23,940 nucleotides of DNA from a virus. The stretch lies in IMG/VR virus record IMGVR_UViG_3300030333_000652, positions 1 through 23,940 of that record; one strand, given 5' to 3'. The stretch's first letter is position 1. The number at the start of each line of letters is the position of its first letter. Shown in pieces: positions 4,775-20,654 of the stretch. Under the pieces are notes generated by a model. That model had not been told where the DNA came from and ran no database searches. It was given only the letters and a program-made list of their open reading frames with translations. The translations under genes and the position numbers were made by a program.

Positions 4775-4777
4775 ATC

Positions 4778-5236: not shown

Positions 5237-5367
5237 ATCCAATCAAAGTATTTACCAATTACATCCATACAATTGTCTTTAATCATCTGTTGTTCCTGCT
5301 CACTTAATTGATTTAAGTCTGCAAATACAATATCTGGCTTATTATATTTATCCTTCAACTTGAACAT
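5233..5367 (-). CDS. Small 44-residue protein, unknown function
   Basis: The frame reads MFKLKDKYNKPDIVFADLNQ and ends IKDNCMDVIGKYFDWI. It begins within the last 20 nt of the 57-residue gene, in the +1 frame, and its TGA overlaps the ATG of the next gene. Composition is protein-like: a basic start, then a predicted helix (LSEQEQQMIKDNCMDVIGKY). Small proteins of this kind between capsid and portal genes are common in Bacteroidota phages, but I cannot assign a role. Confidence 0.65.
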   Translation of the reverse strand: MFKLKDKYNKPDIVFADLNQLSEQEQQMIKDNCMDVIGKYFDWI

Positions 5368-5521
5368 CCTTTTTCTTCTTTTTAGGTTTATCTTCTATAA
5401 ATAAGTTGTTTCTAACACTTTCTCTAAGTCCTTCTATTTGTTTTTGTGTTAGGTCATCTAAAGGTATTCTTATTGAATCAATACTTTTACCTTCCCATTC
5501 TTTTTTTAATTTCCAAGCCAT
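5348..5521 (-). CDS. Small 57-residue basic protein, unknown function
   Basis: The frame reads MAWKLKKEWEGKSIDSIRIP and then has a helix (LDDLTQKQIEGLRESVRNNL) and a Lys-rich tail (DKPKKKKKDV). It is the first gene after the terminator at 5567-5594, so it probably opens the portal transcript or is reached by readthrough. The leader is almost entirely A and T, with TATATTTA motifs that only partly match the TAnnTTTG box, and the start has the TATGGC context. No domain is recognised. Confidence 0.65.
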   Translation of the reverse strand: MAWKLKKEWEGKSIDSIRIPLDDLTQKQIEGLRESVRNNLFIEDKPKKKKKDVQVEG

Positions 5522-5566
5522 AGCGTGTTTATTATAAATATAAATATATGTTATTTGTTTTTTTTA

Positions 5567-5594
5567 ATAAAAAAAAGGGCTAATAAAAGCCCTT
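5567..5594 (-). terminator. Intrinsic terminator after the tail-tube-like gene
   Basis: On the minus strand a perfect 7-bp stem (AAGGGCT/AGCCCTT) with a 6-nt loop is followed by a run of eight T. It lies 26 nt after the stop of the gene at 5620-6216 and before the 57-residue gene. The plus-strand side is also T-rich, so the structure might act in both directions, although no plus-strand gene needs it. Confidence 0.85.
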
Positions 5595-5619
5595 CTTTTC
5601 TTCCCGTATTGAGTAACGA

Positions 5620-6216
5620 TTAAGTTCCTTCTGTGATTGTTAATGCACTTTCATCAGATAAACCGTCAAACGGATATTTAGCAGTAGCAGGTCCAGCACT
5701 CGCAGGAATCTGTATTAAAGCATCCTTTTCTTGCGCAGCCCATTCAATAGTATATCCATTTTGATCACCCATAGCAGTTCCTGTAATAACTGTTCCACCT
5801 GTTACGTGACAACCATTGTTCATTCCTAACAAGAACACATTATCATTTTGGTCTTGAACAAAAATCTGAGCCCTTGAATAAGCCATTAATCTAAGTTCAT
5901 TAGTCATATCGTGGTCTATTTTTTGTAATACTACTGACAATGTTTGCTCAAAGAATGCTGTTCCATTAGCATTATCAGAATTTATGTTTACAGTCATAGA
6001 ACTTAAATTAGGCACTAAGTCATATTTAAATACAGTAGTTGCACCACCCGACTGTGCTGACCAAGTTGCAAAACCTGCAGTAGTCATTTCCGTTGTAGCT
6101 ATAGTAGCAACAGCCTCAATGTTGTTGTTGTATGCTTTACAGATAAAGATAGCTTTCAAGCCACCGATAGTGTCTTTACAGTCTATTAATCGTCCTCTTG
6201 TAATATCACAAGCCAT
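5620..6216 (-). CDS. Probable major tail (tube) protein
   Basis: A 198-residue protein starting MACDITRGRLIDCKDTIGGL. It is rich in beta-prone segments and small residues: VFKYDLVPNLSSMTVNINSD, TAFFEQTLSVVLQKID, and then AQIFVQDQNDNVFLLGMNNG with GYTIEWAAQEKDALIQI. The size, beta pattern and the phrase in which a residue-rich loop is followed by ITGTAMGDQNG resemble tail-tube or similar abundant virion proteins of Bacteroidota phages. It comes directly after the major capsid gene and is bounded on both sides by hairpin terminators, as expected for a highly expressed structural gene. A second capsid-associated protein is the main alternative. Confidence 0.5.
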   Translation of the reverse strand: MACDITRGRLIDCKDTIGGLKAIFICKAYNNNIEAVATIATTEMTTAGFATWSAQSGGATTVFKYDLVPNLSSMTVNINSDNANGTAFFEQTLSVVLQKIDHDMTNELRLMAYSRAQIFVQDQNDNVFLLGMNNGCHVTGGTVITGTAMGDQNGYTIEWAAQEKDALIQIPASAGPATAKYPFDGLSDESALTITEGT

Positions 6217-6238
6217 ATTATTATTGTATTAAAAAGTT

Positions 6239-6267
6239 AATAAAAGGGAGGTGTATTTCAACCTCCC
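6239..6267 (-). terminator. Intrinsic terminator or attenuator after the major capsid gene
   Basis: On the minus strand a perfect 7-bp stem (GGGAGGT/ACCTCCC) with an 8-nt loop is followed by TTTTATTAAC and TTTTT. It starts 16 nt after the capsid stop codon. It may end part of the transcripts, leaving capsid mRNA more abundant than that for genes further on, or protect its 3' end. Confidence 0.8.
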
Positions 6268-6283
6268 ATTTTAAAAGTATCTA

Positions 6284-7267
6284 TTAAGTCCAAACAGTTG
6301 AACCGTAAACACCATCAGCAGCAACTGCACACTGAACACCAAGTGCAAAGTTCATAACAATTCTAACATTGTCTGAACCGTCATATTGGTAAGTTGGTAT
6401 AACTCGTGCTTCTGTCCAGTCAGTAGCAAGGTTAGTTCCAAATACTAGGTTTTCTTTGTAAGTTGCAACGATAACATCATCAAACATTCCTGGACATACA
6501 TAGATTGGGAATCCAAAGTATGTAATACCTTCAAATGATTGTGCAACACCAAGACTGTTGATACCTTGATTAGAACCTGCGCTAGCTAGTGCTTGAAGTA
6601 AGAAAGCATAAGTTTTAGCGTTCATATAAAAACCAAATCCTGGCTTAGAAGTTAAACCTGCAATTCCAACTGCTGCATCATATACAGAAGCCATATCAGT
6701 TAAGATATCACTAGCAGCTAAAGCATCACCAAAATCAACTTCTGTAAAGTCTTTTAATGCACTTGCATCTGCACCTGCCTCATCTAGTGTTCCATCGTCA
6801 GATAAGAAACCTGTTCCGAAAGGAGAAGAACCTTTCCATATCATATTCTCAATATGAGCACCTGCTTTTCCTGCAACTGCTGATAATAAAAAGTCTTCAA
6901 ATGTTCCTGGTAGATTTCCGTTTCTGTCCATATTTTCACCAATCCAAGTTGGGAACACAGTTCCTCTACAAATTTCTTCGTTAACTTTCATATCAGTTAA
7001 AGTTAAAACTTGCTCAGTTAATGAAGTATCATTTCCTGATGAAAATGAACAAGCTGCAGCAACTACAGGATCAGTAATCCCTAGATTTGATATAACTGCT
7101 TTTCTATTTAAACCGTCTATTTGTCTTACATATCCTTTTGCAATTGTGTCTGGTGACTTCACTGCAGCCGTTACATAAGGCAATGCTAATTTACCTGCAT
7201 AGGTGTTATCAGTTACGGTTATATCAAACTGATACTCTTTGCTTAAGTTGTATTGATTATTCGCCAT
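6284..7267 (-). CDS. Major capsid protein
   Basis: A 327-residue protein starting MANNQYNLSKEYQFDITVTD. The middle has features of phage capsid proteins: TLTDMKVNEEICRGTVFPTW, then FEDFLLSAVAGKAGAHIENM with IWKG, and near the end a segment about transporting a measured conformation (GFPIYVCPGM, then NLVFGTNLATDWTEARVIPT). It ends NFALGVQCAVAADGVYGSTV. The length fits HK97-fold capsid proteins. It follows the protease and the acidic scaffold-like gene with a 5-nt gap, the usual head-maturation order, and is followed by a terminator. The assignment is by context and resemblance; the HK97 fold itself cannot be read from sequence by eye. Confidence 0.8.
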   Translation of the reverse strand: MANNQYNLSKEYQFDITVTDNTYAGKLALPYVTAAVKSPDTIAKGYVRQIDGLNRKAVISNLGITDPVVAAACSFSSGNDTSLTEQVLTLTDMKVNEEICRGTVFPTWIGENMDRNGNLPGTFEDFLLSAVAGKAGAHIENMIWKGSSPFGTGFLSDDGTLDEAGADASALKDFTEVDFGDALAASDILTDMASVYDAAVGIAGLTSKPGFGFYMNAKTYAFLLQALASAGSNQGINSLGVAQSFEGITYFGFPIYVCPGMFDDVIVATYKENLVFGTNLATDWTEARVIPTYQYDGSDNVRIVMNFALGVQCAVAADGVYGSTVWT

Positions 7268-7272
7268 TTTTT

Positions 7273-7983
7273 TTAATATTTATTGTTAATGTAATAAGCT
7301 GCCCTCTCTTTAGTTGACAGTTTTCCTAAGTCAATAGTTGTATTAACATTTGATCCTTCTGGTGAATATGTAATTCCTTCATCAGCAGGTTCTCCACTTA
7401 ACTCAACTATCTTTCCTTTTAATTCTTCTATTTGTGTCATAAGTTCTCCTATAACCTCATTAGACATTTCTGTCTTATCTTCTTCAGAATCTTCTTCTGT
7501 TTGCTCTGACAATTCTTCTGTTTCTTCTTCAGCTTTTTTGCCGAATACTTTTTCTTCTAAAGCAGCAACTCGGTCTTTAATTTCTTCAAATGTTTTAGCC
7601 CAGTCAGTGTCTTCAGCGTCCGCCATTTCTTCTTTAGATTCTTCAGACAATTCTTCTTCTGTAGACTCAACTTCTTCTGATAATTCTTCTTCAGATGCTT
7701 CTACATCTTCTGCTTCCTTTTCTTCTCCAAGATCAAGAATTTCAGATTTATCTCCAATTGTCAATTTGTTTCCATTTTCCATTGTATAGCTTCCTGCTTC
7801 CAATGCTTCTGCGTTTCCATCATCAGAAACCGCAAATACTTTAGACCCAATCATAAACTGCTCATCTTCTGTAGCAACAATACGACCATCGTCTAATTTC
7901 ATTTCAGCGTAGAATTTAACGCCATAAGATTTAGGTTCATTTTTCATTTTTAAGATATTTAAAATTTTTTCGAGAGTTCCCAT
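7273..7983 (-). CDS. Acidic scaffold-like head protein
   Basis: A 236-residue protein. The first 80 residues look folded (YGVKFYAEMKLDDGRIVATE, TIGDKSEILDLGEE). The centre, about 85-175, is extremely acidic and low in complexity, with repeated EEELSEE and SEEDK-type units. A predicted coiled coil follows (MSNEVIGELMTQIEELKGKI), and the C-terminus is STKERAAYYINNKY. It sits between the prohead protease and the capsid gene, where scaffold proteins that direct capsid assembly are encoded. Acidic repeats and a coiled coil fit this role. The repeats are also visible in DNA, as near-copies of an AATTCTTCTTCAG-type unit on the plus strand. Confidence 0.65.
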   Translation of the reverse strand: MGTLEKILNILKMKNEPKSYGVKFYAEMKLDDGRIVATEDEQFMIGSKVFAVSDDGNAEALEAGSYTMENGNKLTIGDKSEILDLGEEKEAEDVEASEEELSEEVESTEEELSEESKEEMADAEDTDWAKTFEEIKDRVAALEEKVFGKKAEEETEELSEQTEEDSEEDKTEMSNEVIGELMTQIEELKGKIVELSGEPADEGITYSPEGSNVNTTIDLGKLSTKERAAYYINNKY

Positions 7984-8024
7984 AACATTAATATATATAA
8001 AAGGGTTAAAAATTGTTTATTTCT

Positions 8025-9026
8025 TTATCGTCTGACTGTCTTATTTTTAATAGCAGCACAGACTTTTGCCGCTGTTTCTTTATTACCGTATTGCTTTATT
8101 TGGTCACGCATACAATCATCCCAAGAATATTTTAACATAGCTTTACGTTTCCCATAAGCAATGTATTCTAACATTTTGTATTTTCTCTTTCGTTTCTTTT
8201 TTTTGCCGTGATCCCCTTCCATTTCTTCCTTCATAGTAGCAGAAGCGTGGTCAACACAAGGCATATATAATTTCACCCCATCAACACTATGAGTATGACT
8301 ACCAGAACAACCTTTAAACATTTCTGCATATAAATCAGCTTCTTCTTTTGTTCTAAATAATGGCTCGCCATCTAAACTTCCAACAGGTCTTAATTCGTTA
8401 GCTAAAATAACTTCTTTGATTTTGTTCATCATCACTTCATCAGGACAGTCTTCACAAACTTCGTCTAGTATGTCTTTTTGCTTAGATGCTTCAATTAGTT
8501 TATCTGTGAAGTAGCCTTCGATTGAAAAGCCCCTCACTTCTTTGTTTTTTATTTTTTCCCAAATATCAGGATTGTTTTCTGCAGATACTTGAACGAACCA
8601 CGTTCCAACAGGCATATTGTTGAAACCATACATATTAGACTTATCATATTTTTTATTCTCTTTAATCCACGATTCTACGACAGTTAAGCCCTCTACTGGC
8701 TCTTGGTGTTCAAGTGTATGATTATTGTTCCTTAGATTAGCCATAAACAGCTTCTGTGCTTGTCTTATCGTTTCTTTAGTAAAGTAAACATCATATTCTT
8801 CATTAGTTTCTTTGTCTAATCTTGGAATCTTTTTGTCAGGAATCAAAACCGCACCAATTAATTGTTTTTGTTCTTCATCAATTTTCGCAAGTGATAGAAA
8901 GTCATTATTAAAGAAAACAAAATTTTCTTCTATCGCAGGAAACTTAACAACAGAGATTGCATCAACGCCAAAGTGTTGTGCTGTTTCGTCTATTATTAGT
9001 TCTATTAGTTTTTTCTTTTTAGCCAT
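8025..9026 (-). CDS. XkdF-like prohead serine protease
   Basis: A 333-residue protein whose first 175 residues match the XkdF-like phage protease family (Peptidase_S78_2). The visible landmarks are IGAVLIPDKKIPR (57-69), DVYFTKETIRQAQKLFMANL (79-98), a His-containing NNHTLEHQ (101-108, His103 and His107), GTWFVQVSAENNPDIWEKI (141-159) and EVRGFSIEGYF (163-173), where Ser168 would be the nucleophile. Such proteases cut scaffold and capsid precursors during head maturation. A C-terminal part of about 160 residues has Cys/His groups (EVCEDCPDE, CSGSHTHS), a Lys/Arg-rich block (HGKKKKRKRKYK) and a helix (MRDQIKQYGNKETAAKVCAA). It may bind nucleic acid or metal; that is inference. It directly precedes the scaffold-like gene. 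Confidence 0.75.
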   Translation of the reverse strand: MAKKKKLIELIIDETAQHFGVDAISVVKFPAIEENFVFFNNDFLSLAKIDEEQKQLIGAVLIPDKKIPRLDKETNEEYDVYFTKETIRQAQKLFMANLRNNNHTLEHQEPVEGLTVVESWIKENKKYDKSNMYGFNNMPVGTWFVQVSAENNPDIWEKIKNKEVRGFSIEGYFTDKLIEASKQKDILDEVCEDCPDEVMMNKIKEVILANELRPVGSLDGEPLFRTKEEADLYAEMFKGCSGSHTHSVDGVKLYMPCVDHASATMKEEMEGDHGKKKKRKRKYKMLEYIAYGKRKAMLKYSWDDCMRDQIKQYGNKETAAKVCAAIKNKTVRR

Positions 9027-9058
9027 ATCATTTATAAATATAAAGTTCTTAATTTTGT

Positions 9059-10459
9059 TTATAATGTCGCCTGAATATCTAGTTCTTCTTGCAATGCTTG
9101 TGCATTAGAAATATCAGTTTCTACTACGAATGCTTGAACAGGTTGTTGTTCTCCTGTTGCTGTTCCCGTTATGTTTTCTAAGTTAGGTATTGTTCCACCG
9201 ATTCCGCCCAGTGCTTGTGGTGAAGGAACGTCTGGCGGTGGTCCATCATCACCCCCATCAGTAACGCCAGGCAATTTAGTGGACATTATTTTCTTAACAT
9301 TAGCCATACCAGCTGCAACTGCACCTATTGCTGCTATCGGACCAAATATAGGACCTGCCCCAACAGGAGGAGGTGCTAAGGCAGCTGATGCTGCTGAATA
9401 AGTATTGATTAATGCTTGACCTACTGCTAATGCTTTACCTGCTTTAGATTCTTCACCCATTAATGATGCTACTTGCCCCATTGAGTTAGCTACTATTCCT
9501 CTTTTTGTTTCTTCGGTTAATTCTGCTATTTTAACTTCTGCTTCTGCTGTTTCTTCAGCAACAACGACTGTCTTTTTTAGACTATCTTGCCTTTCTTTTT
9601 CTAAAGCATTTAGATTAGTTAATTGCTCTGACCTTTGACTTGTTATTCTTTCATCAAGATCTGCTAGTTCTGTTTTAGCGTCTATTAAGGCAACCTGTAA
9701 ATCTATATTATCTTTGTTTCTCGATAATTCTAATGCAGCTAAGTCAATCTTCTTCTGTGCTAACGCTTGTTCTTTTGCAAATTGTTCGTCTAAGACTCTT
9801 CCTAATTCTTCGTTAGCAGCTATCCTTTCTTCAAAAGTTAAACTAACATCATCTCTAATTTGTCTTTGTAATTCAGCTTCTTTTTGATATGTTAATTGTA
9901 GTTGTCTTTGTTGGGCATCAGCTAACTTAACTTCATTACGCATTTTGTTTTGTGCTTTAGCAAACTCAACTGTTTCTTTTGCACCTGCTTTTGCATTTTT
10001 AATAAAGTCACTAAAGCTTTCATTATTACCAACTACTGCTTCTTTAACGCCATTAAAAGATTCTTTAGCTAAATTCCCTGCTTCCGTAAATTCTCCTTTC
10101 AATACTTTTCCTACCGCTTTACCTAACAAACCAAGACTTCTAACAACCGATACTATGACTGTTCCGATTTTAGTGAACACATCACCTAATACAGCAGAAG
10201 CAATGTTCACTTTATCCATCACCGCCTGATTCTGTTGTAGCATTTCAGCTAGTTTAGCAAAACCAGCAACAATAAGACCAACACCCATCGCCTTGAATGC
10301 TAAACCAACACCTCTAACACCTGCTTGCATTACAGAGAAACCCCCTTTGGACGCTTTCGCACCCTTACCTGTATCTTCAACGCCTTTTTTTAATTCGTCA
10401 ACTTGCTTAATAGCGTCTTTTGCATCTACATTTATTTTTATGTTTTTTTCTACCGCCAT
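9059..10459 (-). CDS. Tail tape measure protein (short)
   Basis: A 466-residue protein. It has an N-terminal helix, hydrophobic segments at about 50-75 (AFKAMGVGLIVAGFAKLAEM) and 90-115 (IGTVIVSVVRSLGLLGKAVG), a long charged coiled-coil region at about 165-320 with many Gln, Glu, Lys and Ala, and a hydrophobic Gly/Ala/Pro segment near 350-395 (GPIFGPIAAIGAVAAGMANV). This order is typical of tape measure proteins, which set tail length and are ejected with DNA. At roughly 0.15 nm per residue the tail would be about 70 nm long, short for a siphovirus. The gene comes after the tail-tip genes, not before them as in most siphophages. Its first 10 nt overlap the 57-residue gene. Confidence 0.75.
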   Translation of the reverse strand: MAVEKNIKINVDAKDAIKQVDELKKGVEDTGKGAKASKGGFSVMQAGVRGVGLAFKAMGVGLIVAGFAKLAEMLQQNQAVMDKVNIASAVLGDVFTKIGTVIVSVVRSLGLLGKAVGKVLKGEFTEAGNLAKESFNGVKEAVVGNNESFSDFIKNAKAGAKETVEFAKAQNKMRNEVKLADAQQRQLQLTYQKEAELQRQIRDDVSLTFEERIAANEELGRVLDEQFAKEQALAQKKIDLAALELSRNKDNIDLQVALIDAKTELADLDERITSQRSEQLTNLNALEKERQDSLKKTVVVAEETAEAEVKIAELTEETKRGIVANSMGQVASLMGEESKAGKALAVGQALINTYSAASAALAPPPVGAGPIFGPIAAIGAVAAGMANVKKIMSTKLPGVTDGGDDGPPPDVPSPQALGGIGGTIPNLENITGTATGEQQPVQAFVVETDISNAQALQEELDIQATL

Positions 10460-10623
10460 AATATTCTTATTATCTGTTTAAACATTCTTTTAAAACTTGT
10501 GTGATATTCTTGCATACCATAAGCAAAGTCTAATTCTTTATCTTTGTGTTCCACTAATTGTAAGTGGTCAATACTTGGTATTATTACCTTTGCAATGCTT
10601 TCTATATATCTTTTTAATTCCAT
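10450..10623 (-). CDS. Small 57-residue protein between tail-tip and tape measure genes
   Basis: The frame reads MELKRYIESIAKVIIPSIDH, continues with LQLVEHKDKELDFAYGMQEY and ends FKRMFKQIIRILWR. It overlaps the end of the 1182-residue gene by 10 nt and the start of the tape measure gene by 10 nt, and fills a gap that would otherwise be empty. It is probably helical, basic at its end and has no membrane signal. A minor tail or chaperone role is possible from position only. Confidence 0.65.
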   Translation of the reverse strand: MELKRYIESIAKVIIPSIDHLQLVEHKDKELDFAYGMQEYHTSFKRMFKQIIRILWR

Positions 10624-13600
10624 ATTAAATAATCGTGATTTTCAAATTGTATTTTTTTACCATTTTGGAATAACGCCCAATTTTCATCAAACCCTAACGC
10701 CAAATTCTTCATCACGTTAATATCCATATCAGCGGTCAACATCCACGCTCTTTTAGTGTCTGTTTGACTATCATCTAAACCAAATCTTATGACGTTAGAA
10801 TCAATGTCAATATGAAGTGTGCAAGTAACAGGATTAACGCCTTCTCTAATTTGAAACTCTGCTTCACCACCTGTTGCACCTAATTGTGTGACCACACCTT
10901 GATTGATAACAAAAGCTGTGTAGTATGCTACCGCATCTGTCGTTCCTAATGGATAAGCTGAACTTGTTCCGCCAACTACTGTGCAAACACCTTTAACCCT
11001 AATAATAACATTTGTATTGTCAGGAATGAATAATGGCTTTTCATATGGGTTACCTTTTGGATAAGCATATCCACGTGTATTTCCTTCTGTATATCCTGTT
11101 AGAACGATTCTATGGCTTTCACCCCTATATTGTGGTCTATAGGTTGCTGTAGACTTATATTTTATGACTATATCATCTCCATAATAGTTTAAGATCTTTT
11201 GTCCGAATTTATTACTATCACTACCTCTAACAAGTGGTCTATTTGTTCCACCTAATAATCCTGTAAGAAGACTCTTTGTTTGGTCATTATCTAAAATAGA
11301 TGTTGTAGCTGTTAAGCTTTTAATTGTCATAGGTAAGCTACCAGATAAGGATAGGCAACTATACATTCCAGCATTGTTTGGGTCTTCGTCATTGATATTA
11401 AGATATCCACCATTACAAGTGCAACATTCTGGCGTTGTATATACACCAGCCCAATATGAACCAGTGATGTCAGGGGTGCAATCAGGGTCATCTTCTGGAC
11501 ACCATATGAATTGACCAAAATTAGTAGTATTTGATGTTCCTATAGTTCCTATGACATAATTGCAACCACTACAAGTTGAACGTGTATCTAAAGATTTTAT
11601 TAATGTAACTTTTGTGGATGCTTTTGCACCTACTTGGTAATTTGAAATCCCTAGTATTCTCCAATAAGTATCTTTTATAAATATCTCGTCAGCAAAGCTA
11701 AAGTTGAAAATGTCTACTTCGTTTAGATTCAAATAGCATTCCATTATTCTTGATCCTTCAGAATAAAGGTTGTCTAAATATGGTTTCCAATATTTACCAT
11801 ACAAAGTATTATTAAACCAACTACCAAATGTTGGCTGATAATTAAAGACAGTTAAATTTCCTACTAATGGTGGCGTTCCGTTCCAATATAAAGATTTATT
11901 GCCTGGACCTAAAGTATAAGTATTTCCAACAGGAGAAATATCAAAAGGACTGCATATAGGATATTCGTTTATGTTAAATGCTGTTAATGAACTCGCTGTT
12001 GCTCTATGTAAATATATATCTGTTTGCGAACCTGTAGGACCTAAAATGTCAACAGGTGTTCCTCTATACCAAAAAAGTTTAGGTTTTGTTTGTGCTATTT
12101 CATTTTCATAGATGCCTTCACTATTCTGCTTGTAGGTAAACTCATATTGAATAGCCATATTAGGCAATGATGTTCCCGCCTGTTCATCTTCACTTCTAAA
12201 AACTTGACCATTGATATATGGAGAAAACATTGATTCATTCTTCAATTCTCCTGATGCAAATTCATTATTAAATTCATCAATCTTGACGTGTCCAAAAACA
12301 TTCACATTAGGATAGCGTTCTTTAATAGACTTATTATATAAATCTACATCTTCTTGGTCTGTAAGGTGAACAACTTTTTTCTGTAGTTCCGTAGTGTCTT
12401 TAACAACAACCTCTTTTGAGGTGTCTAGCTTGTCTGTCCAGTTTTTCAATTCTCCACTACCAATAAAATCATTGTAAGGTTCTATTAATAGATTTGAAGC
12501 ATTGTCAGGGTCTGCTAAAACAACTAAATTAAATCGTTGTATGATATCTTTCAAGAATCCTCTTTGTGTTAGTTCTGGGTCAATACAAGCAGGTATATCT
12601 ACAGTAGCATCAAAGATATCATCAGAGAATCCAAACCAGTTCATTTGCACTTTACTCCAAATAGAACAGTCGCCTTCAAGATAAATAGGTGCAGATGTTG
12701 CTGGATTAGTGGGTGTTAGACTACACTGAGTCAAAGGACAAGCAATAAATCCATCACTTATGCTTCTTATTGGTCCTAAATGAATCTGTATTTGAGCAGA
12801 ACTATTAAGAGGGATTTGAGTTATATCTAAAGTGATATTTAGAGTTCCTGAATGAGGTGTTGTTGCACCCCCACTTATATCTATAGGAATATATTCTACT
12901 GCACCCTCGTATTCTTCCCCGTCTTCTTGGTTGTTAGTAGCATCCCATCCTACTAACGAATAGTTTATATGTATACCATTATAAGAACCAACCACATTAT
13001 TGAATAAGTAATTATGTGAAATAGTTATTGTTTCTTGCGTAGATGCTGTTCTTGTAAAATAAGAGTTTGCGGTATTCCATATATTGTTTTCATCGCCAAA
13101 GTCTGTGCAGTTACCACTTGGCTCTGTAATGTTAGCAGGAACAGTCACTGTTGACAGTGTAGTATAATTGACTGTATCACAACTGCAACCAGAAGGTCCG
13201 CAAGGTTGAATTATTTCGTCCTGCCAGTCCGCCCAAGCTACATTACTACCAACACTCATCACGCCACTTGGATTAGCAGCTGCATTTACTGTTGGTGTAA
13301 CAGCAGATTCTAAATAGTTAGCAGTAGTCATAAATATTTTCCCAAAATAACTATCATCTATAAAATCCGAAGTATAAGAAAATCCTGCTTGACCAAGAAT
13401 CTTTTTGAATAATGTTCTTATCTGAATAGCTGGTCTAAACTGCGTAAAACTAACACCAAATTCAGAGGCAGCTTGAACGCTACCTGTTTCATTGATAATA
13501 TCCGTAGCAGCTGTTTGGTCCATATTTAAATACCTTTCTTCATTAGGATCAAAATAAAAACCTTGTGCAGTGACAGACATTGGGTAGACAACCTTTTGAA

Positions 13601-14162
13601 CATTTGCACTTGTATCTCTCATAGAAACACCAGCAGTGTTAAGAAAGTTGGAATTGTTTCCATCCCAAGACTTGTAAAGAGTATTATTAGTTGCGTTTGT
13701 ATACGTATAGACGTGATTCAATTCTTCACTATAGCTACCATCATCATTTTTAAAAACATCTCTCAATCTTCGGTTTCCTATTATGTTAAAAAGACTTGCA
13801 CTATTAGAAATCATCACCACTTCATATTGTTGTGCTTTTTGATATACTGCTTTTAATTGTAACGCACCTTCAAACTGTGGAACTGTGCCTACATAAAGAA
13901 CTGCATCAAATTTCGTTTTTGTGCTAAAGACTAAAGTATCTAAATTAACATTATACCAATTTTCAAAGAACTGATTGTTGTTCTGTGTGAATGGTAGCTT
14001 GAACGTTTGACTATAACTTCCTTTTCTTGTTTCTGGTTCTTTGACATCGCTGAACTGAAAGTTCAATGCTACGTTTGGTGCTTCCTGTAAGTCTAACTGA
14101 TAGGTTGTGTCAGATGTTGAAGCAGTTGTTGCCTTTCTATATGCTACTAATCTTATGTTCAT
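10614..14162 (-). CDS. Large tail-tip/hub protein with Cys-rich segments
   Basis: A 1182-residue protein. Its N-terminus (EAPNVALNFQFSDVKEPETR, then GSYSQTFKLPFTQNNNQFFE) matches the start of large tail-tip or baseplate proteins of Bacteroidota phages, in which an N-terminal beta domain precedes hub-like regions. It also has KKILGQAGFSYTSDFIDDSY and SFADEIFIKDTYWRILGISN, typical of the hub. Several segments are unusually rich in Cys: CGPSGCSCD, ACPLTQC, and eight Cys within residues 864-936 (positions 864, 867, 888, 895, 913, 914, 916, 936). These may bind metal or form disulphides in the virion. It overlaps the previous tail gene by one base (TAATG). Confidence 0.7.
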   Translation of the reverse strand: MNIRLVAYRKATTASTSDTTYQLDLQEAPNVALNFQFSDVKEPETRKGSYSQTFKLPFTQNNNQFFENWYNVNLDTLVFSTKTKFDAVLYVGTVPQFEGALQLKAVYQKAQQYEVVMISNSASLFNIIGNRRLRDVFKNDDGSYSEELNHVYTYTNATNNTLYKSWDGNNSNFLNTAGVSMRDTSANVQKVVYPMSVTAQGFYFDPNEERYLNMDQTAATDIINETGSVQAASEFGVSFTQFRPAIQIRTLFKKILGQAGFSYTSDFIDDSYFGKIFMTTANYLESAVTPTVNAAANPSGVMSVGSNVAWADWQDEIIQPCGPSGCSCDTVNYTTLSTVTVPANITEPSGNCTDFGDENNIWNTANSYFTRTASTQETITISHNYLFNNVVGSYNGIHINYSLVGWDATNNQEDGEEYEGAVEYIPIDISGGATTPHSGTLNITLDITQIPLNSSAQIQIHLGPIRSISDGFIACPLTQCSLTPTNPATSAPIYLEGDCSIWSKVQMNWFGFSDDIFDATVDIPACIDPELTQRGFLKDIIQRFNLVVLADPDNASNLLIEPYNDFIGSGELKNWTDKLDTSKEVVVKDTTELQKKVVHLTDQEDVDLYNKSIKERYPNVNVFGHVKIDEFNNEFASGELKNESMFSPYINGQVFRSEDEQAGTSLPNMAIQYEFTYKQNSEGIYENEIAQTKPKLFWYRGTPVDILGPTGSQTDIYLHRATASSLTAFNINEYPICSPFDISPVGNTYTLGPGNKSLYWNGTPPLVGNLTVFNYQPTFGSWFNNTLYGKYWKPYLDNLYSEGSRIMECYLNLNEVDIFNFSFADEIFIKDTYWRILGISNYQVGAKASTKVTLIKSLDTRSTCSGCNYVIGTIGTSNTTNFGQFIWCPEDDPDCTPDITGSYWAGVYTTPECCTCNGGYLNINDEDPNNAGMYSCLSLSGSLPMTIKSLTATTSILDNDQTKSLLTGLLGGTNRPLVRGSDSNKFGQKILNYYGDDIVIKYKSTATYRPQYRGESHRIVLTGYTEGNTRGYAYPKGNPYEKPLFIPDNTNVIIRVKGVCTVVGGTSSAYPLGTTDAVAYYTAFVINQGVVTQLGATGGEAEFQIREGVNPVTCTLHIDIDSNVIRFGLDDSQTDTKRAWMLTADMDINVMKNLALGFDENWALFQNGKKIQFENHDYLIWN

Positions 14163-15640
14163 TAAGAGTTGGTATTAATCGGGTTTGCGTATTCTATTTG
14201 AATAGTATATTGAATCATCTTATCATTAGCCCTTGTCTTTCTTACAAATGAAGAATCTGTTATCATCACGCCTTGCGTAAATTCTGTGTCTGCATTTTCT
14301 ACTATGTAAACATCTGTTGACATTATTAGTTTTTCTAATAGATTAGCATCTTGTTCTGTTATCCAATCCGTATTCAAAGTTTCTTTCAATACTGCTGTTA
14401 CTTGTCTTGTTTTCTTACCTCGCATAGTATTATTGTAATACCACTTAGAAGCTCTAAAATTACCCATCATAGTGCTATAGTTATTTCTAGTAACTTCTAC
14501 TCTTTGTGTTGATTTCTTTTTGAAATTGAAATAATCATAGCATCCTAAGCTATTACGCCACGCTAATCTTCTAACTTTAAAACCTTTGCAACTTGCATCT
14601 TGTCTTATGAAATAGTAAGTGTCTGTTTTTGTAATACCAGCAGAAGATTCTCCTTTTACTGTATAATATGCCCAGCCATCAACAGCAGCATCAGATGGTT
14701 TTATTGCACTGTTTAAACTTTGCCCTTGTAAATTACCAGGACCACAACCAAAATAGATTATTCTTTCTTTATCTTCATTAGCACTACCTGGCGTCATCCC
14801 ACCAAATGCAGTAGAGTTTGTTAATGTATTTGTTCCTGTATTGAGGTCATTACCTTCTGAATCGTAGTAAATTATTTCAACTTTTCCTATATCACTATCA
14901 AAGAGTGAATTGTCATTTAAGAATGCAACCGTATGATAATCCCCCACATTTGTGGAGTCATCCCATTGAACGTAATTAATACGTCCTGATATGTTATATT
15001 CGCCACTTCCAACTTCTACATCGCTTAAAAATCTATCAGAAGAACCCTTGCCTTGAAATACGCTGAAAGCTGTTGTTTGTATGTAATCACTAGGCGATAC
15101 ATCTCGTGCAGTGAATAATGGTAAAGATGCACCCATATAGTATAGAGTGTCATTTACACTTTCTGAGCTATCTTCTGTTGGTATTGAATTTGCTGTTGTT
15201 CCGTATTCTTGATAACCTTTTACATATATAGTTTGAAGCTGTGTTCCACCAATTTTATGGTCACCATTAAGACTGTAAGGTTTTGTGGAATTGTTTTCAC
15301 CCAATTTATGGATTGTTTCAAATGGAGAACCATTGTCGTTTTGATCCCATACTGTGTCTGTTAATTGACTATTAACAATATCTCTTAAATCAAAAAATGC
15401 TCTTGCTGCATCTCCTGAAATATCTACGCTATATCCGTTTCTTCTTTGTTTTATCTTAGCTATTAATGTTCCTGATGCGTCATCTAATCTAACCTCTAAT
15501 ACCAGCTTAAAAAAGAACAAACCACTAATGTCATCTTGATACAGCATATAGCCAATCATAGGATTCCAATTGGTTATTACAGGCACTTTGTCTGCTGCAT
15601 CTACAGGTTCTTGTTCAAATGATATATTTCCTAATCCCAT
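14162..15640 (-). CDS. Tail protein, probably distal tail
   Basis: A 492-residue protein starting MGLGNISFEQEPVDAADKVP. An N-terminal beta-like domain (KLVLEVRLDDASGTLIAKIK, then RNGYSVDISGDAARAFFDLR) is followed by a polar middle rich in Gly, Ser, Thr and Asn, and a C-terminal part with GCYDYFNFKKKSTQRVEVTR and the end KMIQYTIQIEYANPINTNS. The pattern resembles tail proteins that accompany the large hub in Bacteroidota siphophages. It sits between the gp10-like neck gene and the large tail-tip gene. The exact role (distal tail or minor tail) is not decided by the sequence. Confidence 0.6.
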   Translation of the reverse strand: MGLGNISFEQEPVDAADKVPVITNWNPMIGYMLYQDDISGLFFFKLVLEVRLDDASGTLIAKIKQRRNGYSVDISGDAARAFFDLRDIVNSQLTDTVWDQNDNGSPFETIHKLGENNSTKPYSLNGDHKIGGTQLQTIYVKGYQEYGTTANSIPTEDSSESVNDTLYYMGASLPLFTARDVSPSDYIQTTAFSVFQGKGSSDRFLSDVEVGSGEYNISGRINYVQWDDSTNVGDYHTVAFLNDNSLFDSDIGKVEIIYYDSEGNDLNTGTNTLTNSTAFGGMTPGSANEDKERIIYFGCGPGNLQGQSLNSAIKPSDAAVDGWAYYTVKGESSAGITKTDTYYFIRQDASCKGFKVRRLAWRNSLGCYDYFNFKKKSTQRVEVTRNNYSTMMGNFRASKWYYNNTMRGKKTRQVTAVLKETLNTDWITEQDANLLEKLIMSTDVYIVENADTEFTQGVMITDSSFVRKTRANDKMIQYTIQIEYANPINTNS

Positions 15641-15643
15641 ATT

Positions 15644-16186
15644 CTATTCTTTTAATGATTCATCTAATGCTGCTTCTAAGTCATTAGCGAATGCTTCTGT
15701 TATTTTATCTGTCTGTTTATTTAATTCTAATGTAAATGGTTTACTAAAGAATTGTGTTCTTGTTAATCCTCTTTGGTATATTGCTCTTTGTATTAAGAAT
15801 GCTAAACTCTTTCGTGGTATAAATCTTCCATTTTTATCTCTTGCTTGAGCAAGTGGTTTTCCTACTATCCATTTGTCTATTGCACTTCTTGGAGGCATCT
15901 TAGAAGAAAACTTAAAAGGGCTATTTCCACCTCTCATTCTTCCACTGCCTTTATATCCACCTGCACCTCTAACACCTTCATCAACAAAAGCCCAGTAATC
16001 TTCAGCACCACCAAATTCAAATTCTAATGTTACTGATGAATCTGAAGCAGTAACTAAATAGTTATAGTCGTTGTATAATGTGTTTCGACTTGTTGTCTTT
16101 TTCTTTCGCTTTAATATACTCTTTCCTTCCTTGACAACATCGCCACCAAGTTTCTGTAGTGCTTGTATGGTATTAGTAAATTCCAT
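15644..16186 (-). CDS. HK97 gp10-like neck/tail completion protein
   Basis: A 180-residue basic protein. It has a Lys-rich start (EGKSILKRKKKTTSRNTLYN), a middle with FEFGGAEDYWAFVDEGVRGA and GGYKGSGRMRGGNSPFKFSS, a MPPRSAIDKWIV segment, and the C-terminal helix DKITEAFANDLEAAL. The sequence in which a Tyr/Trp-Val-Asp-Glu-Gly motif is followed by a Gly-rich loop and a pro-rich MPP segment is characteristic of gp10-like head-tail joining or tail completion proteins. Its ATG overlaps the preceding stop (TAATG), and it precedes the distal tail gene by 3 nt. Confidence 0.65.
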   Translation of the reverse strand: MEFTNTIQALQKLGGDVVKEGKSILKRKKKTTSRNTLYNDYNYLVTASDSSVTLEFEFGGAEDYWAFVDEGVRGAGGYKGSGRMRGGNSPFKFSSKMPPRSAIDKWIVGKPLAQARDKNGRFIPRKSLAFLIQRAIYQRGLTRTQFFSKPFTLELNKQTDKITEAFANDLEAALDESLKE

Positions 16187-16677
16187 TAACTATTTCCTTC
16201 TATTGGAACAATACAGAGATTGTTTGGATTAGGAACTTGAACGCTTATGTTTGCAGCCCATCCTGTTAGTGTGTTATCAAATCTAGCAGTGAAAGGCTCT
16301 GCGTTAATAGGTAGGCTTAAAACAACATCATCATCAACCCAAGATGTGGAATATAAATTATGGTGAAATTCAGCAACAACATCGTTTATAATATTTAGAG
16401 TTTGTGAGAATGTGTCAACACGACCAACACGTTGTCTGTTAGGGTCATCACCAATTTCTTCACTAATCATATCCATCACATAAATAGAAAACGTATATGT
16501 TTGAACGCCTTTGTCCATTGTTACTGTGCCTGGCTCTGCATATAGAATAATATAGTCAGTCGCACCAAGTTTGTTTAAATCTACTTCATCCATCATTCCA
16601 GAATGAAAGCTATTTATCTCATAGTGCTTTTCTGCTATTGTTTCTAAATATCCAACTACGTTTCTAAAAGTTATCAT
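16186..16677 (-). CDS. Tail terminator-like protein
   Basis: A 163-residue protein starting MITFRNVVGYLETIAEKHYE. It has an alternating alpha/beta outline: NVVGYLETIAEKHYE, ATDYIILYAEPGTVTMDKGV with TYTFSIYVMD, a helical segment DTFSQTLNIINDVVAEFHHN, and a beta end ANISVQVPNPNNL. This, its size and its place between the tail chaperone and the gp10-like gene fit a tail terminator, which caps the tail tube and joins the head. Alternative: another minor tail protein. It overlaps the chaperone extension frame by 14 bp. Confidence 0.55.
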   Translation of the reverse strand: MITFRNVVGYLETIAEKHYEINSFHSGMMDEVDLNKLGATDYIILYAEPGTVTMDKGVQTYTFSIYVMDMISEEIGDDPNRQRVGRVDTFSQTLNIINDVVAEFHHNLYSTSWVDDDVVLSLPINAEPFTARFDNTLTGWAANISVQVPNPNNLCIVPIEGNS

Positions 16678-16906
16678 AATTGCTTCGTTGTTTGTTATTA
16701 TAATCTTGCGTATATGCTAAATATGTTAGCGTTTCCAAGATTGGTATTTTTGTTATTTTATCAATGTTCAAGATGTCGCCATTACAGAGTGAATACAGGA
16801 TGTTATACCATCCCCACTTACTGTTCATACTTACACCTTTTGTTGTTTCATTTCCTGTTGTTTCAAAAAGCTGCGCGAAGTCATCGCTAATCTTTCTCCT
16901 AAAGTC
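16664..16906 (-). CDS. -1 frame extension of the tail assembly chaperone
   Basis: After the T9 run the -1 frame is open for 80 codons to a TAG at 16664. It reads DFRRKISDDFAQLFETTGN, then ETTKGVSMNSKWGWYNILYS and LCNGDILNIDKITKIPILET, ending YNNKQRSNYDNF. The segment before the internal ATG (16828) is as protein-like as that after it, which argues that translation enters from the upstream gene. With the 169 codons before the slip the fused product would be 249 residues. The SKWGW and GDI motifs resemble tail chaperone C-termini. An alternative is a separate 54-residue gene from the internal ATG, which lies 2 nt after the stop of the short form and could be reached by reinitiation. Confidence 0.75.
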   Translation of the reverse strand, partial: DFRRKISDDFAQLFETTGNETTKGVSMNSKWGWYNILYSLCNGDILNIDKITKIPILETLTYLAYTQDYNNKQRSNYDNF

Positions 16907-17412
16907 AAAAAAAAACCTAAGCTAGAAAGTGCTATATCCATTGGACATTCTTTGAAGATTTCTTCTTTAAACTCGTCAGGATTGTAGCTTTCAATAGTAT
17001 ATCTTTCATTCCTTTTAAATGTAACCTTACGATATAAGATTGACATTATAATATGTAAATTTTCAATAGGGTTTTTACAATAATTTTCAAGATCGATATA
17101 TTCTCCTGTGCTAATCCCTGAAAGGTTAGGAACAAAACCATATTCTTCTTTTTTAAATATAAACGTCTTTCTAAATTCTTCTTTGTCTGGTTCTGTATCT
17201 ATCATTGTTTTAATTATCCCCATTATCTCTAATAAGTCTTTGTAAGCCATCTTCTTTACAACAAAGGGTGTAGTGTTACATAATAACGCTAAACTCTTTA
17301 TAACCTTGTTTTTCTCACTTCCTCTGCCTTCTTGTATTTCTACATATTTTTGATAAGTTTCTATTGTTATGTCAGACCACTTATCAGGTATTGTTAATTT
17401 AACCTCTTTCAT
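16831..17412 (-). CDS. Tail assembly chaperone, short form
   Basis: A 193-residue protein starting MKEVKLTIPDKWSDITIETY. I chose the ATG at 17412 because a longer frame would need a TTG inside the promoter box. The protein is mostly helical and charged (KMAYKDLLEIMGIIKTMI, then SGISTGEYIDLENYCKNPIE, NLHIIMSILYR) and ends SFLKQQEMKQQKV. It opens the structural transcript, directly behind a terminator and a TAnnTTTG box. Such chaperones bind the tape measure protein and bring tail tube subunits during tail assembly; a fused long form is made by a -1 slip, as with lambda gpG and gpGT. The zero frame after the slip site is read for 24 more codons. Confidence 0.75.
   Translation of the reverse strand: MKEVKLTIPDKWSDITIETYQKYVEIQEGRGSEKNKVIKSLALLCNTTPFVVKKMAYKDLLEIMGIIKTMIDTEPDKEEFRKTFIFKKEEYGFVPNLSGISTGEYIDLENYCKNPIENLHIIMSILYRKVTFKRNERYTIESYNPDEFKEEIFKECPMDIALSSLGFFLTLGERLAMTSRSFLKQQEMKQQKV
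16906..16915 (-). promoter_or_regulatory. Probable -1 ribosomal frameshift site (T9 run)
   Basis: In the zero frame the message reads GGT TTT TTT TTG ACT, with nine T in a row. The heptamer T TTT TTG is a classic slippery form, and slipping back one base leads into GAC TTT AGG, the start of the extension frame. Downstream, 16875-16887 can form a small hairpin (GCGA, 5-nt loop, TCGC). A sequencing error in the homopolymer is the alternative. Confidence 0.7.
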
Positions 17413-17450
17413 TACTAATAAATATAAATTGTTATTATTTGTCTTTGAAT

Positions 17451-17458
17451 CAAATATA
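17451..17458 (-). promoter_or_regulatory. Promoter -7 box of the structural transcript
   Basis: TATATTTG matches the Bacteroidota -7 consensus TAnnTTTG exactly. It lies directly after the terminator U-tract and about 40 nt before the chaperone ATG. No good TTTG -33 box is at the usual distance; the preceding terminator occupies that position. It may depend on a phage factor or be weak. Confidence 0.55.
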
Positions 17459-17460
17459 AG

Positions 17461-17503
17461 CAAAAAAAGAGCATAGTATAACTTGCAATTTATACTACAC
17501 TCT
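17461..17503 (-). terminator. Strong intrinsic terminator before the structural genes
   Basis: On the minus strand a 14-bp stem (arms 17490-17503 and 17468-17481, with two G-U pairs) and an 8-nt loop (ATTGCAAG) is followed by seven T. The A-tract lies only on one side, so it works on minus-strand transcripts. It should end transcripts coming from the terminase side. Confidence 0.85.
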
Positions 17504-17553
17504 AATTTGGTTGAAAGCTGAAAAATAGTTAGGATGTAAGGGCAGGAAAGAAA

Positions 17554-17730
17554 TTATTGATAGTTATTATAGTTCTTACTATTTATGCTATTTTTAATAG
17601 CTTTGACTATAAGCTGACTTTCCGCTTCCCACCTATCAAAGTGGTTATCCTTCTTTCGTTTAAGAGTTAATGATTTTGCTCTCCAATTTGCATCGGAACT
17701 GTCTTTTGTTTTTTTGTTAATTTAAAGCAT
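17554..17730 (-). pseudogene. Small frame with a stop at codon 3 (possible pseudogene or recoded gene)
   Basis: An AAGGAG sequence stands 9 nt before an ATG at 17730, which is an excellent initiation site. The codons are ATG CTT TAA, so translation would stop at once. In the same frame 55 further codons follow without stop: INKKTKDSSDANWRAKSLTL, then KRKKDNHFDRWEAESQLIVK and AIKNSINSKNYNNYQ, which is strongly protein-like and basic. If the TAA were any sense codon it would be a normal 58-residue protein. It could be a recently broken gene, a sequence error, or a case of stop bypass. No homologue is recognised. Confidence 0.5.
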
Positions 17731-17768
17731 TTGGTTATTCTCCTTAAATCTACAGTAATTTGTATTCA

Positions 17769-17879
17769 CTACTCAAACTCAACAGTTAGTTCAGGGCCAC
17801 CAAAAGTATTATAGCTACCTTTTGGCTTAGTATCGCGTTCCCAACATAATTTAACTAATCTTGCGATTATGCAATTTTC
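17769..17879 (-). other. Open frame of 36 codons without ATG start
   Basis: After an in-frame TAG the frame reads ENCIIARLVKLCWERDTKPK and GSYNTFGGPELTVEFE before TAG TGA. Composition (Trp, Arg, Asp, Gly, Pro in an AT-rich background) is far from that of random noncoding DNA here. There is no ATG, GTG or TTG in frame at a sensible place; the closest is an ATA at 17870, preceded by AGGA at proper spacing. It may be the remnant of a gene, a leader peptide with a rare start, or chance. Confidence 0.4.
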
Positions 17880-17924
17880 CTATTTTTCAGTATTTCAATG
17901 AACAACTATTTGTTGTTGTTTACA

Positions 17925-17961
17925 CAAATATATAAAATAAATTTAATACCAACCAAATATA
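17925..17961 (-). promoter_or_regulatory. Tandem Bacteroidota-type promoter boxes
   Basis: Two exact TATATTTG boxes lie on the minus strand, at 17954-17961 and 17925-17932. The second is preceded by a TTTG at 17954-17957 with a 21-nt spacer, close to the Bacteroidota -33/-7 arrangement. A hairpin (AACAAC, loop AAATA, GTTGTT; 17901-17917) begins about where the transcript would start. The transcript would cover the two ATG-less frames and end at the terminator at 17461. Confidence 0.6.
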
Positions 17962-18008
17962 TATTAAAATTTTTTTACTTTTTTTTATTCTACCTCTGTT
18001 AAATTTTT

Positions 18009-19184
18009 TTAAGAAATGTAGTATTTGCCTGAATATGATACCATTAATTTGTTTAATGCAACATATCTAACTGCATCAACTGCGTGATTAAAAGCATCTA
18101 TTGGTTTGTTTGTTATTTCGTTATTCTTGTTTTTAATCCACTTATAATTCCTAAATTCTTTAATTGCGTTGATGCTTCGCTTAGTTATATTCAGCTTGTG
18201 TCTTTTCAAAACATCAATTCCAATACGAATAGAGTCAGCACCCTTTTTTGCAGGTTTGATATTGATACCACCCATTCTAAATATCTCTTCTATTGATTTA
18301 GGTTCAGCACTATCTGCATAAATCTCTATGCTTCTGTCTATTCCTAAGTCTTTGATTCTATGTGCAATATCTTGATTGGTTAATCCTTTCTCATAAATTA
18401 GTTCATCAACATATAAATCTAAATCGTGCTTATATACTTTAACTAAACTTGTAGGATCGGCAGAGAATCCGAAGTCTAATCCTAACGCTATTTCTTTTGC
18501 ATTATCTGGAATAGTGTCTATTATATTAAATGACGGGAAGATGGTTTCAGTAGCAACCCCCCGCTGCCCTTCACCAAAAACCCGCCATAAGTTTTCATCC
18601 ACTTCTTTTAGTCTTTCAATCTCCTTAACTGTTTCTTCATCTAAGAATGGATTGTCTTTATATGTAGATATATGAAAGTCTACATCATCTCTATCAGAAT
18701 CTATTATCTGTGTGTATAACCAATGATACTCGTCTGATGGATTAAAGTCTATTATTATTTTGTATGTTGTTCTTAATGCAAGTTGTGTGTATTCTTCAAA
18801 TCCAAACTCATTACATTCATTCAAGAATAATACATCTCTCTTTCTACCTCTAACTCTTTGTGGTTGGTCTACACTAATGAACTCAATAACATTTCCATAT
18901 AGATGATATAATGCACTTGATTTGTTATGTAGTCTTTCGTCATACAGATTCTCTTTCTTTAGTATTTCAAAGAAGTCACGCATCGCTGTTCCTCTTAATG
19001 CAGGGAATGTTTTACGTGCTATTGTGATGTATAGATTCTTGCCTTTGTTCTTATAAGCAAACTCAATCAACGCAAGTAGAATGGAATATGTCTTACCGCT
19101 TCTTGTTCCACCTTGTAAAACACAAATCCTTTTGCTTGAGTTCTTTACATCATAATATGGCTTAGCTTGTTTCATCTTCTTCAT
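18009..19184 (-). CDS. terL: Terminase large subunit
   Basis: The motor ATPase and nuclease that packages DNA into heads. I take the ATG at 19184 (391 residues) in preference to a GTG at 19208, since a GGA lies just before it; an ATG three codons later is also possible. Counting from the GTG, the Walker A motif GGTRSGKT is at 33-40, Walker B VLFLNECNE at 126-134, and the nuclease acidic residues are in GLDFGF (Asp245), ADSAEP (Asp299) and HAVDAVRY (Asp378). Both ATPase and nuclease parts are complete. It overlaps the small subunit gene, and no terminator follows directly. Confidence 0.95.
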   Translation of the reverse strand: MKKMKQAKPYYDVKNSSKRICVLQGGTRSGKTYSILLALIEFAYKNKGKNLYITIARKTFPALRGTAMRDFFEILKKENLYDERLHNKSSALYHLYGNVIEFISVDQPQRVRGRKRDVLFLNECNEFGFEEYTQLALRTTYKIIIDFNPSDEYHWLYTQIIDSDRDDVDFHISTYKDNPFLDEETVKEIERLKEVDENLWRVFGEGQRGVATETIFPSFNIIDTIPDNAKEIALGLDFGFSADPTSLVKVYKHDLDLYVDELIYEKGLTNQDIAHRIKDLGIDRSIEIYADSAEPKSIEEIFRMGGINIKPAKKGADSIRIGIDVLKRHKLNITKRSINAIKEFRNYKWIKNKNNEITNKPIDAFNHAVDAVRYVALNKLMVSYSGKYYIS

Positions 19185-19488
19185 TAATCCAAGATGGTGG
19201 AGCTGCACTTACATTAACATTTTGATCTGGTAATCCCTCTATCCTGTCTAGTATTTCTTTTATAGCTTTTAACTTTTCATTGTTATTTGAGTCCTTATGG
19301 AACGCTATTTGTATTAACATCTTAGCTATTGGCGAACCGAAGTCACCTTCACCACCCATATTAGTATCTTGAACAGATAATAATTCTTTCAATACTGTAG
19401 CTACATTTCTACGTCCTTTTGGTCTACCATTCTTTTTTGGTTGGTTAGTAGAACTAAACTGTGTTGCTTTATTTGGAAATTTATTCAT
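19162..19488 (-). CDS. Probable terminase small subunit
   Basis: A 108-residue protein with a start resembling DUF5681-type proteins (ATQFSSTNQPKKNGRPKGRR), a helical middle (VATVLKELLSVQDTN, then PIAKMLIQIAFHKDSNNNEK with LKAIKEILDRIEGLP) and an acidic tail (INEEDETS). The GRPKGRRN segment is the type of basic arm seen before DNA-binding helices in small terminases. It lies directly upstream of and overlaps the large subunit gene, where the DNA-recognition subunit is expected. Identity rests mainly on position. Confidence 0.7.
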   Translation of the reverse strand: MNKFPNKATQFSSTNQPKKNGRPKGRRNVATVLKELLSVQDTNMGGEGDFGSPIAKMLIQIAFHKDSNNNEKLKAIKEILDRIEGLPDQNVNVSAAPPSWINEEDETS

Positions 19489-19499
19489 TGATTCCGTTT

Positions 19500-20654
19500 T
19501 TATTCCGTTATTTTATTTGCCTTTTGTCCTGTAAACTGTTCCCATCTTTCTAATGTTTTGTCGCAATAATCATTGTCTAATTCCATTCCAACAAACTCTT
19601 TTATTTTATGCTTAATACTTGCAATTAAACTTGAACCACTACCTAAATGAGTATCTATAATTTTAGAATCTTTTTCTGCATATTCTTCTAATAACCATTT
19701 GTAAATTTGAACAGGTTTTTGTGTTGGGTGTATTTTTTTTTCTTTATCCGGGTTGTTTAAATATCCAAACCCAATCCAATCATAAGTAAACTTAATTAAT
19801 CTTTTATCAAAGCTTGTGTATGCTAATTCTCCATCAGAAAAGTTTTTATTGTTTTTATTAGTTATTTTTTTATCCCAATATATCCAACCTCTGCTAACAG
19901 GTAGCTTGTCTGTAAAGTAATTACCACCCCAAATTATTTGGTTTTTAGATATTCTTATAAGTTCATCAAAGTATTCTTTTTTTGGTGTGTCATTGTCCCA
20001 ATCTTTTTTTAAATGGTTTTGTTTATTTGAAAAGGTTTTCGCTTTTCCCCGTTTGCCTTTTACTGTTGTTTCTCCGTCAAAATTTATACCATAAGGAGGA
20101 TCAACTATTGCAAGGTCAAAATAATTATCTTTATATTGTTTCATTAAGTCCATATTATCACCACACATCAATCTGTGTTTTCCTAATTCCCAAACATCAC
20201 CAAGTTTAACTCTGCTTTCTTTTACTTCTGGAATATGGTCATCTTCTGTATTGCCTTCAACTATTTTGTCTATATTAAAACCAAAATCAATATCTTTAAA
20301 ACCCCAATCTTTTAGTTCTTCTACATCAAATTCATTTGCAAGAATATCCATATCCCATTCACCACCAGACTTATTTAATCTAATATTTAATTCTCTCTCC
20401 TGTTCTTTGTTAAGTTCTAATACTACGCAAGGTATTGTTATATCATCTATGCTACTTTGTTTTGCTTTTTCTGACCATATCTTGTAACGCTGATGTCCAC
20501 CAATAATGGTCATATCTTTGTTAACAATTATCGGGTCTACCAAACCAAACTTATCTATGCTTTCTTCTAAGTCCTTGTATTGCTTTTTGCTTATCTGTCT
20601 AGGATTGTAAGTAGCAGGTTTTAATTTATTTATCAGTATTCTTTCTATTTTCAT
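19500..20654 (-). CDS. ParB-like domain fused to a DNA amino-methyltransferase
   Basis: A 384-residue protein. The N-terminal part (about 1-100) is ParB/sulfiredoxin-like, with YNPR (16-19) and IIGGHQRYK (50-58), the phosphate-binding signature. The C-terminal part is a beta-class N4/N6 methyltransferase: catalytic DPPYG at 185-189, HPTQKP at 309-314 and the SAM-binding motif THLGSGSS at 335-342, in the order IV then I. It would methylate adenine N6 or cytosine N4 in DNA, protecting phage DNA or marking it for packaging. ParB-methyltransferase fusions are common next to terminase genes. No matching restriction gene is adjacent, apart from the HNH gene. Confidence 0.9.
   Translation of the reverse strand: MKIERILINKLKPATYNPRQISKKQYKDLEESIDKFGLVDPIIVNKDMTIIGGHQRYKIWSEKAKQSSIDDITIPCVVLELNKEQERELNIRLNKSGGEWDMDILANEFDVEELKDWGFKDIDFGFNIDKIVEGNTEDDHIPEVKESRVKLGDVWELGKHRLMCGDNMDLMKQYKDNYFDLAIVDPPYGINFDGETTVKGKRGKAKTFSNKQNHLKKDWDNDTPKKEYFDELIRISKNQIIWGGNYFTDKLPVSRGWIYWDKKITNKNNKNFSDGELAYTSFDKRLIKFTYDWIGFGYLNNPDKEKKIHPTQKPVQIYKWLLEEYAEKDSKIIDTHLGSGSSLIASIKHKIKEFVGMELDNDYCDKTLERWEQFTGQKANKITE

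Follow-up and report, generated by a model that had tools for sequence, protein, structure and literature searches.

Tail assembly chaperones of phages are characterized by an architecture in which two products share a common N-terminus and the second carries an additional domain encoded in the -1 frame, and sequence similarity is low even within the group (PMC5009743). The known chaperone pairs have been described as ribosomal frameshifts (PMC5009743). In addition, bacterial RNA polymerase slips efficiently on homopolymers, for which a threshold of nine A or T has been published (PMC5009743, PMC3711429). In lambda (gpG/gpGT) and HK97 (gp13/gp14), a short protein and its -1 extended form have a common N-terminus, the genes are located among structural genes, and the slip lies near the end of the first frame; the locus described here, as predicted from its sequence, is like them in all of these respects. 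A location between the genes for the major tail protein and the tape measure protein is common, although not universal, among chaperones of the gpG/gpGT type, and the lambda G/T genes are found between V and H.

The window analyzed in this study, i.e., the whole stretch of DNA under consideration, consists of 23,940 bases and was derived from the record of a Bacteroidota virus. The gene for the predicted short form, referred to here as G, is located at 16831..17412 on the minus strand as an ORF of 193 aa from ATG 17412, and matched phrog_32199, a family of unknown function, with an E-value of 1.4e-12. Codons 166-170 of this ORF read GGT TTT TTT TTG ACT, and the nine T of the candidate slip site (GGT TTT TTT TTG in the zero frame) occupy 16907..16915 of the minus strand, running from 16915 to 16907 in the sense of the gene. 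After this run, the -1 frame continues from GAC at 16906-16904, reading DFRRKISDDFAQLFETTGNETTKGVSMNSKWGWYNILYSLCNGD..., for 80 residues up to a TAG at 16666-16664. This frame, referred to as T (16664..16906, minus strand; 80 codons and TAG), would encode the C-terminal part of a long form, GT, predicted to consist of 165 codons, GFFF, and 80 further residues (249 residues in total). The coordinates and product lengths (193 and 249 residues) given by a first-pass annotation of this DNA were exact on direct reading.

Directly before the G start codon lies an AT-rich leader of 34 bases (17413..17446, minus strand), which showed 91-100% identity in many close relatives, and most of the other sequence in the gap between the terminase gene and G was less conserved. 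The whole gap (17413-18008, minus strand, 596 bases) contained no ORF of 60 aa or longer and no Rfam match, and scans of the window for Rfam families and tRNAs gave no match. A second homopolymer of nine is present in the window at 19733-19741, where it reads as A9 in the sense of the minus-strand gene at 19500-20654.

In transcription order, the genes of the window are terminase, G/T, four ORFs, tape measure, a protease-like ORF, capsid, a possible major tail protein, and portal. The terminase genes comprise an ORF of 108 aa at 19162-19488, considered small terminase subunit-like from its position, and the large terminase gene at 18009-19208. G/T follows, and the four ORFs after it (163, 180, 492, and 1182 aa) together cover about 6 kb up to the tape measure gene at 9059-10459. 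Further downstream are the protease-like ORF (8025-9026), an ORF of 327 aa taken as the capsid protein from a weak virion-protein match (6284-7267), an ORF of 198 aa that may encode the major tail protein (5620-6216), and the portal gene (2511-4319). The lambda-like position proposed by the first-pass annotation is therefore a loose likeness, because the gene comes directly after the terminase and about 6 kb ahead of the tape measure gene, and not between the major tail protein and tape measure genes. The order across 2511-19488 is itself unusual in that terminase, G/T, tail genes, and tape measure precede protease, capsid, possible tail tube, and portal. A distant prophage contig (L348) had a similar layout as judged by the sizes and opening sequences of its ORFs.

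Two scans of viral contigs yielded 106 related loci, and both frames were readable in 97 close sequences, including the window. In all 97, T was in the -1 frame relative to G and the string GGTTTTTTTTTGA was identical, with G identity across these loci dropping to 63%. Among 71 distinct close relatives, GGT TTT TTT TTG was invariant with zero synonymous diversity, and the median synonymous diversity of the G gene in the same sequences was 75% of expectation. GGT accounts for about 26% of glycine codons and TTG for about 14% of leucine codons in these genes. As far as sequence comparison can tell, the presence of two frames at the nine-T run is neither chance nor sequencing error.

The G/T pair was also found in the isolated marine Nonlabens phages P12024L and P12024S, where it directly follows the terminase and the site reads CTT TTT TTT TAT. 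Genes 40/41 of P12024L and genes 38/39 of P12024S are homologous to G and T, with the same -1 relation and nine T, but they are annotated as two separate hypothetical proteins, unlike the reading proposed here, and are about 28% identical. The Nonlabens pairs fall to phrog_32199, and phrog_38404 was a weak match to T. Starting from these pairs, the searches picked up 63 additional loci, followed by matching stretches numbering several hundred, including a second clade with the same G/T arrangement and overlaps of up to about 80 codons. Searches of bacterial genomes covered the class of a Flavobacterium MAG and the order of one match. The distant copies in Bacteroidota (E 1e-10 to 1e-19) all had nine T and the -1 relation, and the T profile also matched in distant prophages. 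A first scan of a genome collection detected no relative, and searches of phage records with the two frames of L144 gave no match for T and only the Nonlabens phages for G. One distant copy with nine T lies in a bacterial genome (L349, 8747-9442), and its flanking ORFs were not phage-structural-like by their opening sequences; it may be a remnant.

In total, 337 related loci were considered, some of which are the same contig twice; they were reduced to 100 representatives at 80% identity, or to 104 when four more distant copies are added. T was in the -1 frame at every locus where both frames were found. Relatives in which the two frames form one continuous gene, an arrangement that the first-pass annotation had set against its own reading, were sought among the 337 loci and none was fused. 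The G/T family is unannotated and appears to form a large lineage of Bacteroidota phages.

The run could be located at 328 sites, where its length was 9 T (278 loci), 10 T (49 loci), or 12 T (1 locus). The other loci, where inspected, end before the site, and L172 lay outside the stretch scanned. Raw reads with eight or ten T at this place had also been named by the first-pass annotation as speaking against a slip. Eight T was absent from all 328 located sites; in some distant relatives the run has ten or twelve T, and there too the -1 relation is unchanged. The T run and both frames were conserved in related phages wherever they were located, and the -1 relation was constant. At least nine T are reached in several registers, namely GGT/GCT/ACT/AGT TTT TTT TTR, NTT TTT TTT TAY/TGG/TGC, TTT TTT TTT TGG/TAY, TTT TTT TTT CTG, and NTT TTT TTT TTS. 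On a tree of the 100 representatives, a minimum of 14 changes of register and 15 of the next residue were counted, and at least nine T were always kept. T runs were also counted elsewhere in coding sequence, but these counts were too redundant to serve as a test of nine-T avoidance. Further T9 runs recur near G/T in some relatives, one inside an upstream ORF (L139, L150, L167, L168, and L169; at 2361 in L139) and another close before the start of G (L202, L234, L237, and L242).

These comparative data strongly support the first-pass reading of a two-form product made by a -1 change at the T run, and its slip on nine T is compatible with the ribosome as well as with RNA polymerase. We give an even chance to ribosomal -1 frameshifting alone, i.e., slippage of paired tRNA-Phe on T_TTT_TTT (in the window, alternatively on T_TTT_TTG) as in lambda G/T, with the extra T accounted for by the amino acids coded in the two frames. 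An in-frame T_TTT_TTT was present in every site read, the chaperone pairs described so far are ribosomal frameshifts (PMC5009743), and a -1 frame codon for Phe or Leu can explain the first T past the heptamer. However, this heptamer needs seven T and the runs never fell below nine, so that lengths of seven or eight were missing from the 100 representatives although both flanks vary. The left and right contributions of T also compensated for each other in 104 of 104 sequences (naive Fisher p 5e-11). Moreover, no conserved stimulatory RNA structure was detected. Folding near the site showed no excess (mean z of about 0 over the 100 representatives), and neither side of the site yielded a consensus structure (downstream, in the 71 close relatives). 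The small downstream hairpin proposed earlier (16875..16887, minus strand) has a stem of only 3 bp and is not conserved, and it was rejected as a conserved element.

Just short of that even chance, we place slippage by RNA polymerase, in which stuttering on nine T would add a U to some transcripts and the resulting 10-U mRNA would be translated normally to GT. The run has at least nine T in all three registers, equal to the published threshold of nine A or T (PMC5009743; PMC3711429), and the +1 frame, which would be entered by 8-U or 11-U transcripts, stops within four codons in 98 of the 100 representatives. On the other hand, the flank compensation comes down to two to three independent changes in a tree-aware test, a number at which significance is unreachable; the +1 stops may simply follow from dual coding (TTTAGG); and T9 always holds the ribosomal heptamer. 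A comparable case is dnaX of Thermus thermophilus, which, like other transcriptional slippage genes, makes two products from a coding homopolymer of nine A or T (PMC5009743, PMC3711429). That gene is unrelated, and slippage was shown there by experiment, whereas it is one of two readings here. Because the run is at least nine, the slippage threshold is nine, no RNA structure is conserved, and independent changes are few, we regard ribosome and polymerase as about equally likely. The fuller proposal, that in a lineage of Bacteroidota phages the chaperone pair arises through slipping of RNA polymerase on at least nine T and not through ribosomal frameshifting, with the ratio set at transcription, is somewhat less probable than its opposite. 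Searches of open-access papers found no tail assembly chaperone reported to arise by transcriptional slippage.

The T frame might also be regarded as a separate small gene begun at the internal ATG (16826..16828, minus strand), with the -1 reading ahead of it incidental. This ATG was present in 66 of 67 close relatives of the same length, and gene 41 of Nonlabens phage P12024L is annotated in this manner. Nevertheless, the codons ahead of the ATG are under selection in the -1 frame. From the slip to the zero-frame stop, the -1 frame was stop-free in 71 of 71 close relatives, and the +1 frame was open in 0 of 71; when the zero frame was recoded at random, about 10% of the trials left the -1 frame open. 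Mean protein identity across this overlap was 0.70 for the -1 frame versus 0.61 for the zero frame in the same 71 sequences, and the most variable base was the third position of the -1 codons. Since the -1 frame is open, better conserved, and variable at third positions, it is evidently under protein selection ahead of the internal ATG, bearing out the first-pass view that the reading before 16828 is protein-like. In addition, the second clade has no Met at the aligned position, and the overlap of its T with G reaches about 80 codons. An independent T gene is thus very improbable, and we rejected it because the internal ATG is not general across the family; in the window it is probably not a normal start.

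A sequencing error or a phase-variable DNA homopolymer has hardly any probability and was rejected. Homopolymers are prone to errors and may differ in length at the DNA level, but here the same run length recurs across many independent metagenomes, phage isolates, and genomes, both frames are coded in the overlap and constant across sources, and no version with eight T or with fused frames was found.

The identification as a tail assembly chaperone comes from architecture and context. At the sequence level, the predicted products of G/T share an N-terminus, the longer is reached through the -1 frame, and this arrangement is conserved across the family. Sequence relation to the lambda and HK97 genes was not detectable, with no match in hhalign comparisons of G/T against lambda G, lambda T, and HK97 gp13, and T9 replaces the lambda slip site. 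Searches of Pfam, NCBIfam, and PDB sequences with G or T returned nothing convincing. The fold of G was predicted fairly confidently (pLDDT 83) and matched its own family and gp10 of Flavobacterium phage 6H (E 5e-5), with a weak match (E 0.03, TM 0.45) to one protein named tail assembly chaperone. T was predicted to be helical with low confidence (pLDDT 58). Fold searches of the PDB with G or T gave nothing convincing, which is no sign of a new fold. The gene for gp10 of Flavobacterium phage 6H (L339, 10352-10927), located upstream of a tape measure gene, encodes a possible distant relative of G (fold E 5e-5, profile E 8e-4), which among named proteins is the closest in structure. It ends in T6C with a -1 stop right after and a further open stretch beyond, and the same slip was rejected for it because of this ending and the immediate stop.

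The function named in the first-pass annotation, a tail assembly chaperone, remains the best reading of architecture and context, although known chaperones gave no match by sequence or in the PDB; it fits because a G-plus-GT design lies among structural genes. On present evidence, G/T would work like gpG/gpGT, and descent from known chaperones is a separate matter. We consider it likely that a two-form tail assembly chaperone is produced through a frame change at the nine-T run, whichever machine slips. In such a scheme, two proteins would have about the first 168 residues in common; most products would end in the zero frame as G (193 aa), and a minority would shift to the -1 frame within the nine T and continue for 80 residues as GT (249 aa). 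The slip itself would be, with about equal probability, a polymerase event (10 U instead of 9) or a ribosomal -1 shift on T_TTT_TTT. If the lambda roles carry over, the tape measure protein would be coated by G, and the part of GT that recruits the major tail protein would be T.

Taken together, comparison supports the existence of two frames in a conserved -1 relation, selection acting on T ahead of the internal ATG, and a T run no shorter than nine at the located sites; from these we infer the production of the fusion, its ratio, and the chaperone role. As judged from sequences, the locus belongs to a new and well-supported lineage within a known kind of recoding, and its homopolymer site is unusual. 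These results point to a putative role for a phage gene pair that is widespread but unannotated, listed in phrog_32199 as 'unknown function', and suggest that it is a mistake to annotate T as a gene in its own right or to omit it. Under a transcriptional slip, RNA polymerase rather than the ribosome would determine the proportions of the two tail assembly proteins, which would be a different solution to a well-studied problem.
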